Origin: Streptomyces sp. RKAG293
Lineage (GTDB): Bacteria > Actinomycetota > Actinomycetes > Streptomycetales > Streptomycetaceae
DNA: 64,000 nt
Direction: 5' to 3'
Assembly (NCBI RefSeq): GCF_023701745.1
Contig: NZ_JAJOZB010000001.1
Location: 3,106,501-3,170,500, forward strand
The position numbers and the translations under genes are program-made. The notes under the pieces were generated by a model. It searched no databases, was not told the origin of the DNA, and worked only from the letters and a program-made list of their open reading frames with translations. Every line of letters starts with the position of its first letter. Position 1 is the first letter of the stretch. This document shows positions 6,156 through 60,476 of this stretch, in pieces.

Positions 6156-6570
6156 GGCGGACGAGTCGGCCATATACGCCGGGTTCTGTCTCCCGTGGTC
6201 CTTGCGGGCCATGGGGAGGCGGCCATCCATCTGGGACCGGCGTTGCCGCCGGCCTCGTGCGGTCTACCCGCGGACTCGGGCGGGCAGCCCTCAGTCATCC
6301 GCGCAGAGCCGCCTTGCGGCGGCCCATTCTTGACCTTGCTCCAGGTGTGGTTTACCTAGCCGTCCAGGTCACCCTGGACGCTGGTGGTCTCTTACACCAC
6401 CGTTTCACCCTTACCGGGGGCCTTGCGGCTCCCGGCGGTCTGTTTTCTGTGGCACTGGCACGCGGGTCACCCCGGGTGGGCGTTACCCACCACCTTGCCC
6501 TGTGGAGCCCGGACGTTCCTCGGAAGGATCACAAGGATCCCGCCGCGACCGCCCGGCCGGCTCGTCCGCC
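6156..6570 (-). ncRNA. rnpB: RNase P RNA (class A)
   Basis: Reading the minus strand, the core motifs of bacterial RNase P RNA occur in order: GAGGAACGTCCGGGCTCC (conserved region I), the ACAGAAA loop, GTAAGGGTGAAACGGTGG, GTAAACC, and AGACAGAACCCGG near the 3' end. The ends are set by the terminal helix: GGCGGACGAG at the 5' end pairs perfectly with CTCGTCCGCC at the 3' end. That gives about 415 nt, normal for Streptomyces. The RNA is the catalytic subunit that matures tRNA 5' ends. Confidence 0.97.
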
Positions 6571-6579
6571 GTGCCGCCC

Positions 6580-6585
6580 ATCCTA
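6580..6585 (-). promoter_or_regulatory. Probable -10 box of rnpB
   Basis: TAGGAT on the minus strand lies 9 nt before the first base of the terminal helix, the expected place for a housekeeping sigma factor -10 box. No clear -35 consensus is seen at 17-18 nt upstream. Confidence 0.5.
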
Positions 6586-6603
6586 GTCGACGCGCCTGGG
6601 CCA

Positions 6604-8094
6604 CTATGCCGGGGCGAAGAGGACCCTTGACGTGCTGGGGTCGGCTTCGGTGAGGCGGACTCGGAGGTGGTGGCCGAGGGGGAGAGCGGGGGCGGACGGT
6701 GGGGACTGGATGCGGGCCACGACGGCGGGGTCGTCGAGATGGATCGTGCCGGTGCCGGGTTCGCGGTCGTCGAGGTCGATGACGAAGGCGTCGAAGATCT
6801 CGCCGACGCGGTCCTTGAGCAGGGCGGCCTCGATCAGGTCGACGCATTCGCGTTCGGCTCGGTTGGCGTGCTGGGTGCCCGCGGTCATCTCCTTGGGGAG
6901 GCCGGGGAGGGCGGCTCGGACCCAGTCCGGGGGCTGCTCGCCCGCGACGGCCGCGAGGCAGAGCTCGCCGGCGTAGCGGTCGACGAGGCGGCGCAGCGGG
7001 GCCGTGCAGTGGGTGTAGGGGGCGGCGACGGCGGCGTGTTCCGCGTGCTTGGGGGCGGCGCCGTCGAAGACCGTGTAGCCGGCGCCGCGCAGCAGGGAGG
7101 TGCACTCCTGCAGGAAGGCGGCGTGGTCGGGGCGCCGGGGGTCGAGGGAGCGGATGACGTCGGCGTACGGGGTGCCGGCCGGCCAGTCGACCTGGAGGGC
7201 TTGGGCGACGCGCCTGAGCCGGTCGGCGGCTCCCTGGGGTGCGGCGGGGAGCGTACGGAGGATGCCGGTGCCGGACCGGATCATGAGGTCGGCGGCGGCC
7301 ATGCCGGTGAGCAGGGAGATCTGGGCGTTCCAGCCGTCGGCGGGCAGCGGGGCGCGGTATTCGAGTACGTAGCCGTCGCCGTCGGGGCGCTGCTCGATCT
7401 CCTGCTCGGGGACGTTGAGGGAGATGCCGCCGCGGTCCCGTTCGAGCCCCTCCCGGAGCAGCCCGATCTCCTTGAGGAGGGCGACGGGCTTCTCCGCGGT
7501 GCCGTCGTCGATGGAGCGCTGGACGCCCGCGTAGTCGAGCTTGGCGCGGCTGCGGACCCGGGCCCGGCGGACGTCGGTGGCGGTGACCCGGCCGGTCGCG
7601 TCGAGGTCGATCCGCCACAGCAGGGCCGGGCGGTCCTGGCCGGGGAGCAGGCTGGCGGCGCCCTCGCTGAGGAGCTGCGGGTGGAGGGGGACGCGCTCGT
7701 CGGGGAAGTAGAGGGTCGTGACGCGGCGGTGCGCCTCGGCGTCCAGCGCGCCGCCGGGCGTCACGAAGGCCGCGACGTCGGCGATGGCGTAGTGCACCCG
7801 GTATCCCCCGGCCCCGGTCCCGGCCCCCGTTCCGGCCCCGGCCCCCGTCCCCGTCCGGCGGGCCAGGTGCATGGCCTGGTCGAGATCGGTGGACGTCGGC
7901 GGGTCGATCGTGAAGAGCGGGATGTCGGTGGCGTCGAGCTCCGGCATCCGGGGACGGTCGGCGGCCCGCCGGGCCTCGGCGAGCACGGCGGCCGGGAACT
8001 CCTCCGGCACCTCGAGCCGGACGCGCAGCGCACGCAGCGCGTCGCGCAGCAGGGTTCCGTCGGCGGCCGGGACGAGCAGGTGGCGGCGGGGCAT
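6604..8094 (-). CDS. RNB-domain 3'-5' exoribonuclease (RNase II/R family)
   Basis: 496 residues, shorter than E. coli RNase R or RNase II because the cold-shock N-domains and C-terminal S1 domain are reduced. The RNB signature FTIDPPTSTDLDQAMHL near residues 72-88 supplies the metal-binding Asp residues, and later motifs HYAIADVAAFV and YTHCTAPLRRLVDRYAG are typical. The protein should degrade RNA processively from the 3' end. The first Met before PRRHLLVP is chosen because the upstream extension has non-coding composition. No Shine-Dalgarno is evident, so it may be leaderless. It is divergent from yaaA with a 67-bp shared promoter region. Confidence 0.88.
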   Translation of the reverse strand: MPRRHLLVPAADGTLLRDALRALRVRLEVPEEFPAAVLAEARRAADRPRMPELDATDIPLFTIDPPTSTDLDQAMHLARRTGTGAGAGTGAGTGAGGYRVHYAIADVAAFVTPGGALDAEAHRRVTTLYFPDERVPLHPQLLSEGAASLLPGQDRPALLWRIDLDATGRVTATDVRRARVRSRAKLDYAGVQRSIDDGTAEKPVALLKEIGLLREGLERDRGGISLNVPEQEIEQRPDGDGYVLEYRAPLPADGWNAQISLLTGMAAADLMIRSGTGILRTLPAAPQGAADRLRRVAQALQVDWPAGTPYADVIRSLDPRRPDHAAFLQECTSLLRGAGYTVFDGAAPKHAEHAAVAAPYTHCTAPLRRLVDRYAGELCLAAVAGEQPPDWVRAALPGLPKEMTAGTQHANRAERECVDLIEAALLKDRVGEIFDAFVIDLDDREPGTGTIHLDDPAVVARIQSPPSAPALPLGHHLRVRLTEADPSTSRVLFAPA

Positions 8095-48255: not shown

Positions 48256-48944
48256 TGCCGCGCCCCCGGCTGCGGGTCCTCGCCGTCCTGCTGGCGCTCG
48301 GCGCGCTGCTCGCGGTCTCCGCCCTGCCCGCGCAGGCCGCCGCGTACCGCTACTGGTCGTTCTGGCAGCGCTCCGGCGACACCTGGACGTACGCGCAGAC
48401 CGGTCCCGCGCTGGACCGGCCCGACGACGGGTCGGTGGAGGGCTGGCGCTTCGCGGCCAGCGCCGAGGCGCAGGACTCCTCGAAGCCGCGGGACGTCCCC
48501 GGCGCCACGTCGTTCGCCGCGATCTGCACGGGCACCCCGCCCAAGGGCGGCACCAAGCGCATCGCCCTCGTGCTGGACTTCGGCACCGCCGCCGACGCGG
48601 GCGGCGGTGCGGCACCGCCCGCGCCGCGTACCGCCTGCGCCCAGGTCCCGGGCGACGCGACGGGCGACGACGCGCTCGCCGCCGTCGCCAAGCCGCTGCG
48701 CTACAACTCGGCCGGCATGGTGTGCGCCATCGCCGGCTACCCGAAGGCGGGCTGCGGGGAGCCGGTCGCAGAAGGCTCCGGAGGCTCCGGCACGGCATCG
48801 GCGTCGAAGAGCCCCGCGCCGCAGGCGTCGGGCGACGGCGGCGGTGACGGCGGGGGTCCCTCGGTCGGTTGGTTCGCCGGCATCGCCGCCGTCCTCGCCC
48901 TCGGCGGGGCGGCCCTCTGGCAGGCCCGCCGCCGGCGCGGATGA
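48255..48944 (+). CDS. SCO2322-family secreted protein
   Basis: 229 residues: signal peptide cleaved near QAA-AY, a Trp/Tyr-rich start (YRYWSFWQRSGDTWTYAQTGP), a domain with four Cys that could form two disulfides (ICTG, TACAQ, VCAI, GCGE), a Gly/Ser/Ala spacer and a C-terminal membrane helix with an RRRRG tail. The name SCO2322 family is recalled from annotation of such operons. It overlaps the previous stop (TGATG) and the EcfT start (ATGA). Function unknown; an accessory binding protein for the transporter is the simplest view. Confidence 0.8.
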   Translation: MPRPRLRVLAVLLALGALLAVSALPAQAAAYRYWSFWQRSGDTWTYAQTGPALDRPDDGSVEGWRFAASAEAQDSSKPRDVPGATSFAAICTGTPPKGGTKRIALVLDFGTAADAGGGAAPPAPRTACAQVPGDATGDDALAAVAKPLRYNSAGMVCAIAGYPKAGCGEPVAEGSGGSGTASASKSPAPQASGDGGGDGGGPSVGWFAGIAAVLALGGAALWQARRRRG

Positions 48945-50197
48945 ACACCGGGGTACGCCGGAACACCGCCGGCCGCGGGGCCGCCGTCGCCACCCGGTCG
49001 ACGGCGCTGCACGCCGGGGCGTGGTGGCTGTGGGCGCTGGGGCTGGCGACGGCGGCGTCCAGGACCACCAATCCGCTGCTGCTCCTGCTGCTGGTCGCGG
49101 TCGCGGGCTATGTGGTCGCCGCCCGCCGCACGGACGCGCCCTGGGCGAAGTCCTACGGGGCGTTCCTGAAGCTGGGACTGGTGGTGCTGGCGATCCGGCT
49201 GGCCTTCGCGGTCCTGCTCGGCTCGCCGATCCCGGGGACCTACGTGCTGTTCAGGCTGCCCGAGGTCCCGCTGCCCGACTGGGCGCGGGGGGTCAGGCTG
49301 GGCGGGAAGGTGACCGCTGAGGGTCTGCTGTTCGCGCTGTACGACGGCATGAAGCTGGCCACCCTGCTGGTCTGCGTGGGCGCGGCGAACGCGCTCGCCA
49401 ACCCGGCCCGCCTGCTCAAGTCGCTGCCGGGCGCGCTGTACGAGGCGGGTGTCGCGGTCGTCGTGGCGATGACCTTCGCCCCGAACCTCGTCACCGATGT
49501 GCAGCGGCTGCGCGCCGCCCGCCGGCTGCGGGGCCGTGACGACCGCGGGGTGCTGGCGCTGCTGCAGGTCGGACTTCCGGTTCTGGAAGGGGCGCTGGAG
49601 CGGTCGGTGGCGCTGGCCGCCGCGATGGACGCCCGCGGCTACGGCCGCTCCGCCGACGTACCGGCCGGGATACGCCGGACGACGGCCGCGCTGACGCTGG
49701 GCGGACTGCTCGGCGTGTGCGCGGGAACGTACGCGCTGCTGTCCGCGTCCGGCGCCGGGTACGGCGTGCCGGTGCTGCTGCTCGGGCTGGTCTCGGCGCT
49801 GGCGGGGCTGCGGCTCGGCGGCCGGCGGTCGATCCGCAGCCGCTACCGGCCCGACCGGTGGGGCGCGCGGGCCTGGCTGGTGTCGGGCTCCGGGGTCGCG
49901 GTGGCGGGGCTGATGATCTGGGCGGCCTCGCACGATCCACTGGCGCTGGCCCCGCCGACGATCCCGCTCGCCGCGCCCACGCTGCCCCTGTGGCCCGCGC
50001 TCTCGATCCTGATCGGGCTGCTGCCCGCGTTCGTCGCACCACCCCCGGCGCCGCCCCGGCCCACCCCGGTGTCCCCGGCCCAGCACGTCGGGCCGGCCCC
50101 GCAGGTCAAGCCGGCCACGCACGGCGTCCCGGCCCCACACGGCGTCCCGGCCCGGCACGTCATCCCCCAGCCGAACTCGAAGGAGGACCGCACGTGA
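48941..50197 (+). CDS. ecfT: ECF transporter transmembrane T component
   Basis: 418 residues with six to eight hydrophobic helices and the coupling motifs in the CbiQ/EcfT cytoplasmic loop (RAARRLRGRD and ALAAAMDARGYGR, the A-R-G type signatures). A Pro/His-rich cytoplasmic tail follows. It links the ATPase to the substrate-binding S component. Overlaps both neighbours by 4 bp, so expression is tightly coupled. Confidence 0.9.
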   Translation: MNTGVRRNTAGRGAAVATRSTALHAGAWWLWALGLATAASRTTNPLLLLLLVAVAGYVVAARRTDAPWAKSYGAFLKLGLVVLAIRLAFAVLLGSPIPGTYVLFRLPEVPLPDWARGVRLGGKVTAEGLLFALYDGMKLATLLVCVGAANALANPARLLKSLPGALYEAGVAVVVAMTFAPNLVTDVQRLRAARRLRGRDDRGVLALLQVGLPVLEGALERSVALAAAMDARGYGRSADVPAGIRRTTAALTLGGLLGVCAGTYALLSASGAGYGVPVLLLGLVSALAGLRLGGRRSIRSRYRPDRWGARAWLVSGSGVAVAGLMIWAASHDPLALAPPTIPLAAPTLPLWPALSILIGLLPAFVAPPPAPPRPTPVSPAQHVGPAPQVKPATHGVPAPHGVPARHVIPQPNSKEDRT

Positions 50198-55861: not shown

Positions 55862-57046
55862 TCAGTCCTCCGGCCGCACCGACCGCGAGGGGTCGTCGAG
55901 CCAGGCGGTCTCGCCCTCCCGCGTGACGGTGAGCCCGAACCGCGTGTGCTCAGGACGGCCCTGTTCCTCCCACCACCGGTATGCCGCTTCCGTCTCGTCC
56001 CACAGCCGGCGCGGACCCGACTGCCAGACGCGCGCCTCGTCCTCCGCGTCCCGGAACATGACACACGCCCAGGATCTGTCGGTCAGCCCGTAGAACCAGA
56101 CGGGCCGCGCGCCTTCACGCTTGTCGGCCACGGCCTGCGAGCAGTCGGGCACGCGAAGGCCGAGGGCGAACGGGGCGGCGGTGTACGGACCGGTGACGAA
56201 CTCGGCCTCAGTGATGGTCGTACGGGACGTGTCGGCGTCATTCATCGAGCCCGTGGCGAGATAGTCGTCGTGGTCGGGGCGGGACGACCGCTGAGCCCGG
56301 AGCTTCATGAATTCCACGGGGCGCGTGAAGTTCCCCATCGCCTTGCCGTCCTTCACCACCAGCCGGACCACGGCATCCGCGTTGGAGAAGTGCGTCCCCC
56401 ACGGCGCGACGATGAGTCCGCCCGGGCGGGTCTGCTCGATCCAGGCACCAGGAATCTCCCGGAGCCCGACGGTGGCCAGAACGCGGTCGTACGGGCCCTG
56501 CTCCGCGCATCCGGCGAACCCGTCGCCCCTGACGACCACCGGGTACAGCCCAGCCGCGCACAGCCGCTCACGGGCACGGGCGGACACATCGCGGTCCACC
56601 TCGATCGTGGTGACGTTCTCACCGCGAAGACGATGCGTCAGCGCACCGGCCGTCTCGCCCGTACCGGTGCCCACGTCGAGCGCGTTCATGCCCGCGTCCA
56701 CGTCCAGGGCCTGAAGCATCGCGTACACGACGGAGGGCATGGACGAGGAGCTGGTGGACATGTCTCCGGGCACGGTGCCCGTGTGCTTCCCGTCATCCCA
56801 CTGGGTAACGATGGGGATGTCGCTGTCCGCCGTGGCGTACCAGGTGTCGGGGTCGGCCGTTCGATCCACCGGGACGCTTGTCCCTGCGTCCATGTCGAAC
56901 GGCCACATCAGGTCCGGCAGGAACGCGGCCCGGTCCACGGCCGCGAAGGTCGGAGCCCAGTCCGACGTCATCGAGTGCGTCTCAAGCAGGACGCGCCCCA
57001 GGTCCTTGCGGCTGGGGCGCTCCACCTGCGCAGGGTTCAGCGTCAC
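55862..57046 (-). CDS. PIMT-like O-methyltransferase associated with a small peptide gene
   Basis: 394 residues, much longer than housekeeping protein-isoaspartate methyltransferase (about 210). The SAM site is NALDVGTGTGETAGAL; ENVTTIEVDRDVSARARERL and DRVLATVGLREIPGAWIEQTRPGG are PIMT motifs. The N-terminal part (AAVDRAAFLPDLMWPFD, SDIPIVTQWDDGK, STSSSSMPSVVYAML) is characteristic of RiPP-associated PIMT homologues. A C-terminal domain of about 160 residues follows, as in such enzymes. It should methylate an Asp side chain, leading to aspartimide. The GTG start overlaps the stop of the small ORF (GTGA), coupling enzyme and peptide. Confidence 0.85.
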   Translation of the reverse strand: MTLNPAQVERPSRKDLGRVLLETHSMTSDWAPTFAAVDRAAFLPDLMWPFDMDAGTSVPVDRTADPDTWYATADSDIPIVTQWDDGKHTGTVPGDMSTSSSSMPSVVYAMLQALDVDAGMNALDVGTGTGETAGALTHRLRGENVTTIEVDRDVSARARERLCAAGLYPVVVRGDGFAGCAEQGPYDRVLATVGLREIPGAWIEQTRPGGLIVAPWGTHFSNADAVVRLVVKDGKAMGNFTRPVEFMKLRAQRSSRPDHDDYLATGSMNDADTSRTTITEAEFVTGPYTAAPFALGLRVPDCSQAVADKREGARPVWFYGLTDRSWACVMFRDAEDEARVWQSGPRRLWDETEAAYRWWEEQGRPEHTRFGLTVTREGETAWLDDPSRSVRPED

Positions 57047-57186
57047 CTGCGGCGGTTCCCGTCGCCGGGCGGGGTGCCCCCGTCGGGGCTGGGCGGGTCC
57101 TTCGGCGGGGTCCAGGGGGTGCCGGGGTGCTTGTCCTTGTCGTCGCTCCCACCCCAGGTGGGGGCGGTGGCCCACAGACTCGTCAT
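57043..57186 (-). CDS. Candidate RiPP precursor peptide (47 aa)
   Basis: The ATG is preceded by AAGGAG at 6 nt, an ideal ribosome-binding site, and the TGA overlaps the methyltransferase GTG, so it is almost certainly translated. The product has three Trp (5, 11, 25) in the first half and a Pro/Gly/Asp-rich second half ending in RRR. It contains two Asp-Gly pairs (35-36 and 42-43), the dipeptide most prone to aspartimide formation. There is no Cys and only one Ser after residue 14, so it is not a lanthipeptide. With a PIMT-like enzyme directly downstream, it fits the substrate of an imiditide-type pathway. Leader and core limits are unknown. Confidence 0.8.
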   Translation of the reverse strand: MTSLWATAPTWGGSDDKDKHPGTPWTPPKDPPSPDGGTPPGDGNRRR

Positions 57187-57374
57187 GCGTCGCTCCTTCG
57201 TTCGCTCTCACCACGGCGCAACTGCTGGGATCTTGAGGTCGGTTAGCCGATTCGGCTCCGGCCTACCGGTCTCGCGCCGTGAGTACGAAGTTACGGCTAC
57301 GCGGAGAGGCGAACCAGTCACGCAGCGTGCCTGTTCGCCGACGGGCCGACAGGAAGTGCCACCTCGCGTGGTAG

Positions 57375-58610
57375 TTACCCGGTGACGCCCAGGTGAGCGG
57401 CCATGTCCCGCATGTCCGTGGTCAGCGTCCGCTTACGGCGCGACAGGATGTCCTCCATGATGTACCGCGCCATGGACTGATGCTTCAACCACTCCGGCGA
57501 GCTGCGGAGGATCGCGCTGAGCTCGTCCATCGCGTCCTGGTGCGATCCCAGCTTCGCGTGGGCCCTGGCGACATCGAGGCGGTGTCGGTCCCAGTTGTTC
57601 GCGCTCGGCCGGCCGAGCTGCTTCAGCGCCGCTGCTCCCACGAGGCCTTCGTCGGCCCGGCGCAGCACCCCTCGGGAGTCCCCGATCAGGGAGAGGTCCT
57701 CGATCGCCTTCATCTCGGCGGTCACCGGCCCGAAGGTGGTCCAATGCTCACGGAAGTCGACGTGCTCGACATTCAGCGCGCTCGCGGCCGTCGCGGTCAT
57801 GCGCCGCGCTTCCCTGGCCACATCCGGGCGGTTGTTGCGCATCGCGGCGGAGGCGACACGCTGGAGCAGCTCACCCCACACCGCCAACTCCCCCGGTGAC
57901 GCACTGGAGATCCGGGGTTCGACCTCGGCGGCCGTGACGGTCGCCAACCGTTCGGCTTCGTCGAACCGGTCCTGGCGCAGGAGCAGCCAGCCCATGCCGA
58001 CGACGCCGGTGGCGGCGATCAGGGTCTGCCCGGCCTCCCGGGCATCCCGGATGCCCTGGGAGAGTGCGTGATAGGCCATGTCGTACCGCCGTACCTGCGT
58101 CAGGTACTTGCCGGCGAGCAGGAAGGAACTCGCCCGCAGGACGATGGCCTGCCGACGGGTCTCCTCGTCCTCGGCGAGCACGACCGCGGCCTCGGCGGAG
58201 CGCAGGATGGCGGGCAGCTTCTTCGCGACCGAGTCGTAGCGGTCCGCATGGTAGAGGCTGTGCGAGTCGTCGATGTCCCGCTGGACGGCCCCGAGGTCGG
58301 GGGCCTGATCAGGTGCGGAGAGCACCTCCGACAGTCCGATGGGCGGCATGAGCGCCCGGCGCAGCTCCATCAGCTTCGGGCCGTCGCCCAGGTTCGCACG
58401 AACAGGCTCCGGCGACCCGGTGGCGAAGAGACCGGACGTGGTGGTGCCCAGCGCCCTCGCGAGCAGGTGAATGGTCTCGACCTGGACGTTGCCGCCCTGC
58501 TCGACCTTGCGCACGACGCCCACCGACAGGCCCGCCGCTTCGGCGAGTTGTTCCTGGCTCATCCCCGTCCGGCGGCGATGGGTGCGGACGTTCTCTCGCA
58601 GCGACGACAT
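57375..58610 (-). CDS. XRE-family regulator with TPR-like C-terminal domain
   Basis: 411 residues. Residues 1-65 are a Cro/C1-type helix-turn-helix (TGMSQEQLAEAAGLSVGVVRKVEQGG). The rest is helical repeats, TPR-like (ILRASSFLLAGKYLTQVRRYDMAYHALSQGI, LLLRQDRFDEAERLATVTAAEVE). Proteins of this layout (as in PlcR/Rgg-like or SARP-free Streptomyces regulators) often respond to small molecules or peptides. It lies 188 bp upstream of the peptide-methyltransferase pair on the same strand and is the likely regulator, possibly sensing the peptide product. Confidence 0.85.
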   Translation of the reverse strand: MSSLRENVRTHRRRTGMSQEQLAEAAGLSVGVVRKVEQGGNVQVETIHLLARALGTTTSGLFATGSPEPVRANLGDGPKLMELRRALMPPIGLSEVLSAPDQAPDLGAVQRDIDDSHSLYHADRYDSVAKKLPAILRSAEAAVVLAEDEETRRQAIVLRASSFLLAGKYLTQVRRYDMAYHALSQGIRDAREAGQTLIAATGVVGMGWLLLRQDRFDEAERLATVTAAEVEPRISSASPGELAVWGELLQRVASAAMRNNRPDVAREARRMTATAASALNVEHVDFREHWTTFGPVTAEMKAIEDLSLIGDSRGVLRRADEGLVGAAALKQLGRPSANNWDRHRLDVARAHAKLGSHQDAMDELSAILRSSPEWLKHQSMARYIMEDILSRRKRTLTTDMRDMAAHLGVTG

Positions 58611-58728: not shown

Positions 58729-59445
58729 TCAGATGCTCAGGAGCTGCTGCGTCAGGTCGCGGTAGTGCGTCAGCGCCACGCGCAGTTCCTCCGTGTCGGC
58801 CTTGGCGTCGTCGTTCTGCCAGGTCGACCGAAGGGTGCGACGGCGCTCGGCGAGCTTCTCGGTGAGCTGCTTGGCGGCCTGCTCGAGGACGGCGTCGGCC
58901 TCCTCGACGGACTTGCGCGGCTCGTCCACGAACGTGCCCATCGCGTGCTGCAGGCGCTCCTCCAGCCCGTCGCCCGAGCCCGCGGCTCCGCCGTGGCGGG
59001 CGGTGTGGGTCTCGGCGGTGTGCTCGGCGGCGCGGGGGACGCTGCCTTCGCCGGTGCGCGCGGCCTCGGTCGTACGCGCCGGGTCGGTGGCGCGGGTGGC
59101 GTCCCCCGTTCGCGGGGCGTCACCGGTGCCGCTGCGGGTGGGGTCGGCCACGTGCTTGGCCTCGCTCGCGCGGGTGGCGTCGGTGGTGCGGGTGGACTCG
59201 TTCGTCCGCGTCGGCTCGTTCGTGCGCGCCGAGTCCGTCGTGCGCGGGGCCTCGGTCGGACGGGCCGTGGCCGCTGCGTCCTTGCGCGGGTCGTCCGTGC
59301 GGCCGCCGTCAATGCGCGGCGGGCGGGGCGGCTCGTCGGGGTTCTGGGCTGGGACCCGGCCGGTGTTCCGGTCCGGCGCGGCGCTGCCGCGGGCCTGGTC
59401 CTGGCTGATCTGGTCCTGGCGGGTCTGGTCCTGGCCTTCGCTCAT
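58729..59445 (-). CDS. Low-complexity Thr/Arg-rich protein with C-terminal helical domain
   Basis: 238 residues. About 1-150 is a disordered region with degenerate repeats of the ART/TRTNE/TDATR type; 155-238 is a compact helical domain (MGTFVDEPRKSVEEADAVLEQAAKQLTEKLAE, then TEELRVALTHYRDLTQQLLSI). The same domain pattern recurs in the neighbouring gene, so the two are paralogues. No signal peptide or membrane helix, so cytoplasmic. AGGAG precedes the ATG. Function unknown. Confidence 0.75.
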   Translation of the reverse strand: MSEGQDQTRQDQISQDQARGSAAPDRNTGRVPAQNPDEPPRPPRIDGGRTDDPRKDAAATARPTEAPRTTDSARTNEPTRTNESTRTTDATRASEAKHVADPTRSGTGDAPRTGDATRATDPARTTEAARTGEGSVPRAAEHTAETHTARHGGAAGSGDGLEERLQHAMGTFVDEPRKSVEEADAVLEQAAKQLTEKLAERRRTLRSTWQNDDAKADTEELRVALTHYRDLTQQLLSI

Positions 59446-59570
59446 CGTCTCTGCGCTCCTGACAGTTCGCTGATGTCTCGTGGACTACGGACTACGGATC
59501 ACGGCATGGGCCGGCGGCCTGACGGCCTCACGGCCCTGGTCCTGCGGGGGTCGGTACCGGCGGTGGTCCG

Positions 59571-60227
59571 TCAGTTCTGCCGGCGGCCGAGCACGCCGTG
59601 GTGCTTCTCCGCGGCACGCGCGTCGGTGCGGTCGGCGCCGTCGTCGAGGCGCTCGGGTTCCGCGTCGCGGTTCGACGGAGCACGGTCCGCGTCTGCCTGA
59701 ATGAGTTCCTCGAACATCGCGCGGGCCCGGACGAGCGCCTCGCGCATCTCCTCGGTGGAGGTGCCGTCGTCGCCGCGCCCGGCGATCTCATGGGCGTCGC
59801 GGTAGCCGTGCAGATGACGGGCGTGGTGCACCGACAGCGCGTCGAAGTGCTCGCCGGACTTCGCGTCCGGGAAGCCGCGGTCGCGGGCCAGGTTCTCGAT
59901 CAGCGCGTCGGCCTCGCCGAGCGCCTTCGCGGGTGAGTCGATGAAGTGCTCCTGCACGGCGGTCCAGCGGGCCGTGTACTCCTCGCGGGCCTGGGTCGGC
60001 AGCGGACGGGTCGTGAGGCCCTCGTGCTTGCGCAGCCGTTCGGACAGTTCCTTCTCGGTGGCCTTGGTGTCACCGTCGTGACGGCGCAGGACCCGGTCGT
60101 ACTCGGGCCCGAAGCGCCGGTGCAGGCTCCGGCCGCCCAGCCCACCCGGCCGGAGCATCACGGTCGTGAGAGCGGCGGCCAGAACGATGACGACCACGAC
60201 GATGGCGATAATCACGCCAGTGGACAT
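59571..60227 (-). CDS. Membrane-anchored helical protein, paralogue of its neighbour
   Basis: 218 residues. An N-terminal membrane helix (about 4-25) and basic stop-transfer (LRPGGLGGRSLHRRF) put the rest in the cytoplasm. The soluble domain contains EHFIDSPAKALGEADALIENLARDRGF and TEEMREALVRARAMFEELIQ, aligning with the neighbouring gene's C-terminal domain. The pattern is known from uncharacterised Streptomyces membrane proteins. GGGAGG at 7 nt precedes the ATG. The two genes are 125 bp apart on one strand and probably co-transcribed. Confidence 0.78.
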   Translation of the reverse strand: MSTGVIIAIVVVVIVLAAALTTVMLRPGGLGGRSLHRRFGPEYDRVLRRHDGDTKATEKELSERLRKHEGLTTRPLPTQAREEYTARWTAVQEHFIDSPAKALGEADALIENLARDRGFPDAKSGEHFDALSVHHARHLHGYRDAHEIAGRGDDGTSTEEMREALVRARAMFEELIQADADRAPSNRDAEPERLDDGADRTDARAAEKHHGVLGRRQN

Positions 60228-60334
60228 GGGAATGCCTCCCGTTTCTGCGGGTCTTCTACGGGTCGACGGACAGGGTGTGCTTCGTTGCCGGCTCATCGAT
60301 CGGCTTGCCCGAAAGCGGGTGCCCAAACGTCGAA

Positions 60335-60362
60335 CGCCCGTCCGGTCAGGGCCGGACGGGCG
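60335..60362 (-). terminator. Terminator of the MFS gene
   Basis: CGCCCGTCCGG / CCGGACGGGCG with a 6-nt loop, followed on the minus strand by TTCGACGTTTGG. About 115 bp past the MFS stop; a second 8-bp GC hairpin lies nearer the gene. Confidence 0.65.
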
Positions 60363-60476
60363 TACCTGCGGGGTGCGGGGCCGGCCCCCGGACCGGGGGC
60401 GGGACACGCGTGTTACGGGTGCTGCTGGAGGGTCGGGTGGTGCGCTCCCGCGGCGGTCGCGCGAGCGGCAGGAGCG

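Follow-up and report, generated by a model that had tools for sequence, protein, structure and literature searches.

Introduction

Type I pamtides are a class of ribosomally synthesized and post-translationally modified peptides (RiPPs), published in 2023, whose two-gene clusters combine a Gly/Pro/Asp-rich precursor of ∼45 residues with a PAMT as the primary modifying enzyme, according to the available part of PMC10787088. The available part of a 2026 review (PMC13001092) equates them with the imiditides, counts 1414 of them, notes that imiditide precursors are often unannotated, and reports that altered C-terminal precursor residues abolish or reduce modification; it names the purpose of imiditides as the bigger challenge. 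Here we describe a peptide-methyltransferase gene pair in a 64,000-nucleotide stretch of Streptomyces sp. RKAG293 (RefSeq assembly GCF_023701745.1, contig NZ_JAJOZB010000001.1, positions 3,106,501–3,170,500), referred to below as the window. The sequence makes it highly likely that these two genes constitute a type I pamtide (imiditide) pair. An earlier note on this DNA had proposed a candidate new imiditide-like RiPP; the locus fits the imiditide class, but the class itself is already published (PMC10787088, PMC13001092), so the pair would be a further member rather than a new class, and it may already be listed in the data set of PMC10787088 or in Cao et al. 2023 (JACS).

Among described systems, the type I pamtide pairs SpaA/SpaM (Streptomyces sparsogenes) and NmaA/NmaM (Nonomuraea maritima) share with this locus a two-gene cluster, a linear Gly/Pro/Asp-rich precursor of ∼45 residues, a conserved Asp near Pro/Gly, a basic C-terminus, the C-terminal domain of the PAMT, and the lack of a cyclase, and differ from it in sequence. 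Type II pamtides, or cysimiditides (FcaA/FcaM), resemble it in having a two-gene PAMT cluster and a conserved Asp, and group 13 graspetides with a PIMT homolog (fuscimiditide, amycolimiditide, SsfA) resemble it in the TIGR04188 homology of the methyltransferase.

Results

A conserved 47-codon gene overlaps a methyltransferase gene

The peptide gene (window 57043–57186, minus strand) has 47 codons and an ATG start, and encodes MTSLWATAPTWGGSDDKDKHPGTPWTPPKDPPSPDGGTPPGDGNRRR, a 47-residue product containing Asp35-Gly36, Asp42-Gly43, a basic NRRR tail, and no Cys. An AAGGAG ribosome-binding site (57193–57198, minus strand) lies 6 nt before the ATG. The TGA stop codon is part of a 4-bp GTGA stop/start overlap (57043–57046, minus strand), where the methyltransferase gene (55862–57046, minus strand, 394 residues) begins with a GTG at 57046; we infer from this overlap that the two genes are translationally coupled. 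The layout given in the earlier note, including the open reading frame (ORF), its ribosome-binding site, the 4-bp overlap, the 394-residue PIMT-like methyltransferase, and a preceding XRE/TPR regulator, was thereby confirmed.

The 47-codon ORF is a genuine and conserved gene. In its two nearest relatives (genomes G019 and G007), the differences at codon positions 1, 2, and 3 number 1, 2, and 6 and 2, 3, and 9, respectively, and the ATG start, the same ribosome-binding site, and the overlap are all preserved. Since the differences are mostly at third positions and these signals are retained, the ORF is real; absence or a frameshift in close relatives, which the earlier note had named as fatal to its proposal, was not seen. 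A search of the genus matched the peptide at 22 places in 16 of 35 genomes (E≤0.01). One of them (in G004, E = 0.009), which has a TIGR04188 match on its 5′ side, was left out, and the tail ends in an NTGA stop at all 21 places read. The consensus tail of these 21 precursors is PGTPWTPPxxPPSPDGxxPPGDGxHRK. Across the family, homologous tails occur in at least 69 of 394 genomes and in 12 of 17 genera (E≤0.001), the genome count being a lower bound because scoring was limited to 19 candidates in each genome. Altogether 88 places were read, comprising the 21 genus places, the window among them, and 67 further family places. An intact methyltransferase gene directly follows the peptide at 74 of these (three being near-identical copies in one genome, G154), a partial or broken gene at nine, and none at five. 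The stop codon lies within NTGA in 70 of the 74 loci with an intact gene.

The small ORF might alternatively serve only as a leader for translational coupling, or be an artefact of a methyltransferase that is longer at its N-terminus. An in-frame GTG at 57214 would indeed give a 450-residue enzyme. However, the substitutions fit the peptide frame and not the extension frame, on which ground the extended enzyme was rejected. Furthermore, the tail is conserved at the amino acid level, with matches in the 12 genera, and the enzymes of relatives have a possible start at the overlap. We consider a mere leader or artefact extremely improbable.

The methyltransferase belongs to the PIMT family and carries a C-terminal extension

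The enzyme, a PIMT-like L-aspartyl O-methyltransferase, matched the PCMT family (PF01135, E = 2.3e-23) and, with E = 7.1e-83, the graspetide-associated methyltransferase family TIGR04188, where its 278.9 bits fall below the cut-off of 380. It contains the sequence WEEQGRP, an instance of the WXXXGXP motif described in PMC13001092 and present in 67 of the 74 enzymes encoded by the intact loci. An AlphaFold2 model built from a 26-row alignment (mean pLDDT 90.1) predicts a PIMT domain plus a C-terminal extension, the latter modeled with high confidence. The top Foldseek match of this predicted fold was the PIMT of T. maritima (1dl5), which VIA-align 2 aligned over residues 12–385, and thus into the extension (Z 25.8, rmsd 6.6, 310 aligned), whereas the other PIMT rows covered the catalytic part only. 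The available part of PMC10787088 describes 1dl5 as the sole solved structure in the clade with a C-terminal domain, to its authors' knowledge.

When 107 methyltransferases were placed in a tree, 72 pair enzymes, including that of the window, shared one branch (support 98, starred) with 11 other rows, and all 21 graspetide methyltransferases fell outside it. The 72 are the 74 enzymes minus two of the three G154 copies; the tree was made by a quick method, is rooted at the midpoint, and contains several long branches.

The pair has the features of a type I pamtide

All five of the type I pamtide features that we tested were found in the pair. The precursor has 47 residues and contains 14.9% Gly, 21.3% Pro, and 12.8% Asp, compared to published type I means of 17.3%, 16.8%, and 10.2% (PMC10787088, available part). 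The counterpart of Asp35 is conserved in 73 of the 74 intact loci. The C-terminus is basic, and at least two Lys, Arg, or His residues occur among the last five in 73 of the 74 precursors. The enzyme carries the PAMT C-terminal extension and the WEEQGRP motif. Finally, no primary RiPP enzyme was found in the ORFs examined between 48.7 and 64 kb of the window, and the pair has no TIGR04187 match closer than 2.1 Mb.

The ten neighboring ORFs scanned against Pfam in that interval encode a P450, an ABM protein, a thiolase, and ECF and ABC transporter components, or gave no match; at least one of them (48737–50158, antisense to a transporter gene) is unlikely to be a real gene. No lanthipeptide enzyme was among the ten, and the peptide has no Cys for a TxDGC core, so that a class I lanthipeptide with a PAMT was rejected. 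A type II pamtide (cysimiditide) was rejected likewise; in contrast to FcaA/FcaM, the CXXCXGXG zinc motif is impossible in a peptide lacking Cys.

A rival reading is a graspetide, in which an ATP-grasp enzyme encoded elsewhere would act in trans and the methyltransferase would tailor the cyclized peptide. TIGR04188 is the best NCBIfam match of the enzyme, the peptide core holds Thr/Ser and Asp, and two matches to TIGR04187 (SAV_5884-type ATP-grasp) exceed the cut-off in this genome. TIGR04187 is also widespread in the genus, with matches in 30 of 35 genomes at E≤0.001, a threshold at which 7 of 14 control genomes match as well, and matches over the cut-off in 22. However, the nearer of the two matches in the window's genome lies 2.12 Mb from the pair, in contrast to the adjoining ligase of a group 13 graspetide, and the ATP-grasp gene at 5284143 adjoins a TIGR04188 gene of its own. 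Among the 21 genus loci, 11 have a TIGR04187 match on the same contig, the nearest at 66.9 kb, and 10, mostly on draft contigs, have none. Because the ATP-grasp genes are distant, the enzyme belongs to a separate clade, and its TIGR04188 score is under the cut-off, we rejected this reading, which we hold to be very unlikely. The earlier claims that no ATP-grasp, lanthionine, or lasso gene is nearby, and that the methyltransferase would work on the Asp-Gly peptide by itself, are supported: the neighboring ORFs examined include no RiPP core enzyme, and the search for an ATP-grasp partner did not refute them.

The type I pair SpaA/SpaM has a probable counterpart among the loci that we read. In S. 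sparsogenes ATCC 25498, which we take to be the same type strain as DSM 40356, an enzyme 75% identical to that of the window, the closest in that species, lies behind the peptide MINVQIVTAADGG...SPDGETPPGDGTHRK. DSM 40356 is the source of the tested pair SpaA/SpaM (PMC10787088, available part), and the peptide ending in SPDGETPPGDGTHRK is likely SpaA. Its identity is likely rather than proven because that genome contains two further candidates; in all, it has three type I-like precursors, each different and each ahead of one of three related methyltransferases (L136/L243, L244, and L246). The S. sparsogenes locus has DUF6879 and DUF5753 genes, whereas the window has an XRE/TPR regulator.

Several observations weigh against assigning the pair to type I. 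The presence of three candidate precursors in S. sparsogenes weakens the link to SpaA; the WXXXGXP motif is missing from 7 of the 74 enzymes, and a strict pattern for the S-adenosylmethionine (SAM) motif I matches only 54; and one locus (L127) has an intact enzyme behind a peptide with GG in place of the PDG aspartate. In addition, 14 of the 88 tail places are without an intact methyltransferase gene.

Asp35 is the likelier site of modification

The two Asp-Gly pairs, both put forward in the earlier note as possible sites, differ in conservation. Among the 74 loci with an intact methyltransferase, PDG (once TDG) occurs at the position of Asp35 (codon 57082–57084, minus strand) in 73, and GDG at the position of Asp42 (codon 57061–57063, minus strand) in 66, the eight loci without it making Asp42 a conserved yet apparently dispensable residue. 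Other precursor types in the named genomes, such as ...PPTPDGGPGVPNPPKAA, also have PDG without GDG. For these reasons Asp35, in SPDG, appears likelier than Asp42 to be the modified residue, although the comparison is biased, both motifs having been part of the search query.

The PDG aspartate is replaced in two tails, which read PEG in L047 and PGG in L116, both at places lacking an intact methyltransferase gene. Its loss is thus found at 2 of the 14 places that have no intact enzyme (L126, one of the 14, has no readable tail) versus 1 of the 74 that have one (Fisher P = 0.065), some of the 14 being doubtful homologs. An association of Asp35 loss with a broken enzyme is only suggestive.

By analogy with published relatives, from which both the tail recognition and the chemistry are carried over, the small gene would encode a Gly/Pro/Asp-rich precursor that is linear. 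The methyltransferase, whose translation is probably coupled to that of the peptide, would be guided by the basic C-terminal tail of the precursor and use SAM to methylate one aspartate, most likely Asp35. The resulting ester would convert to an aspartimide, which can hydrolyze to isoaspartate. The pair very probably yields a peptide in which a single aspartate is altered, and the upstream XRE regulator probably controls the pair. The locus adds a small, easily overlooked gene to a RiPP class of unknown biological role and names Asp35 as the candidate residue.

Regulator genes precede many related pairs

The regulator gene of the window (57375–58610, minus strand, 411 residues) lies 188 bp upstream of the peptide gene. 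Its product matches XRE (HTH_3/HTH_31) and, weakly, TPR profiles, and has no DUF5753 match. An XRE/TPR counterpart occupies the same place in G007 (93.7% identical) and in G019, where it is only 46.8% identical while the methyltransferase is still 92% identical.

Among the 74 intact loci, an XRE-DUF5753 gene was found within 3 kb upstream on the same strand in 30 and a DUF6879 gene in 26; on the opposite strand upstream they occur in 6 and 3 loci, and downstream (1–4 kb, either strand) in 3 and 0. Gene density predicts DUF5753 at ∼0.3 of the 74 loci, based on 297 Pfam matches in 104.6 Mb from 12 genomes. DUF5753 or XRE/TPR genes together lie upstream on the same strand in 35 loci and downstream in four. 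These regulator profiles are local ones built from some of the same loci, and no P value is given for the association because the loci are related. In the 80 named loci, which include wider enzyme types, DUF5753, DUF6879, and XRE/TPR matched on the upstream side in 15 loci each, and on the downstream side in 7, 5, and 3, respectively. When the genes around the 21 genus loci were clustered, the only clusters present in at least six loci were the enzyme (21), DUF5753 (12), DUF6879 (9), and XRE/TPR (6). In L039, L076, and L105, ORFs that we take, from sequence features, to be DUF397-like or ATPase-like lie in between.

In genome G012, the tail NAPWTPPEPSPDGQSPEGDGQHRK ends a 301-residue XRE-DUF5753 protein (L056 7173–8078; G012:C1, about 7017118–7018023; DUF5753 E = 1.3e-49), and the nearest in-frame ATG, GTG, or TTG start before the matched tail is ∼225 bases away. 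An intact methyltransferase gene follows with the usual overlap. This locus (L056, the same place as L034) was the sole regulator fusion seen in a screen of tail-bearing ORFs of at least 60 residues, which covered 214 and 59 ORFs, partly from the same loci, with four local profiles (DUF5753, DUF6879, XRE/TPR, and methyltransferase). The methyltransferase matches in L104 and L229 were dismissed as enzyme ORFs that chance to fit the tail pattern.

These arrangements raise the possibility that the modified peptide is not exported and serves XRE-type regulators inside the cell as a partner or switch, the methyltransferase altering a tail that a neighboring regulator reads or that belongs to the regulator itself. 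Such a role is compatible with a type I pamtide pair, so that the odds of the two overlap. The excess of DUF5753 and DUF6879 genes on the upstream side, the fusion followed by an intact enzyme gene, and the restriction of frequent non-enzyme clusters to the three regulator-associated families all point in this direction. However, only a single fusion was seen, the window's own regulator is of the XRE/TPR and not the DUF5753 type, 39 of the 74 loci have neither DUF5753 nor XRE/TPR upstream on the same strand, and the related loci are not independent. An ECF transporter component makes up one of the rarer neighbor clusters (in five loci or fewer), that of the three syntenic loci. Cluster-linked regulators are also common, and DUF5753 occurs beside graspetides as well (PMC8939145 and PMC13097080, available parts). 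On balance, we regard a regulator switch as unlikely. A bolder proposal is that the type I pamtides with this kind of tail are not secreted antibiotics but signals linked to regulators: the substrate tail would work with an XRE-DUF5753 regulator, of which it forms a part in one genome, and the formation of aspartimide or isoaspartate would switch WhiJ-type regulators post-translationally. This is speculative, and we hold it with low confidence.

A resemblance exists to Scr1/Scr2, XRE-DUF397/XRE-DUF5753 pairs of Streptomyces (PMC10364602, available part), in that many related pairs are preceded by DUF5753-type genes, although the XRE/TPR regulator of the window differs in having no DUF5753 match. 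In a word search, the available part of PMC10787088 contained no mention of DUF, XRE, or regulator and that of PMC13001092 no mention of XRE; neither was among the papers listed as mentioning DUF5753, DUF6879, or DUF397. It is the link to regulators and the fusion that merit further work; the frequent regulator genes ahead of the pairs and the one natural fusion offer a concrete route to ask what imiditides are for.

Further features of the locus and genome

Upstream of the XRE gene, the window encodes two products of 238 and 278 residues without a Pfam match (58729–60407, minus strand), the 238-residue product being rich in Thr and Arg. A promoter scan gave no sigma-70-type site, a result that says little in such DNA.

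Elsewhere in the same genome, L058 (G000:C1:3882046–3899170) contains what is likely another type I pamtide pair, with a different precursor type, MKPWYLMADGGQDDGDSGNKHGGGGSDEGGNTSDGSGPADGK, directly followed by a methyltransferase gene (about 3890010–3891185) whose product is 44% identical to that of the window. Another locus, L061 (G000:C1:3940553–3955083), holds around positions 6380–7834 a decayed cassette made up of methyltransferase fragments, an ORF resembling DUF6879, and an interrupted XRE-like frame, the latter two recognized by eye. The cassette is apparently a defunct version of the DUF6879-XRE-pamtide arrangement.

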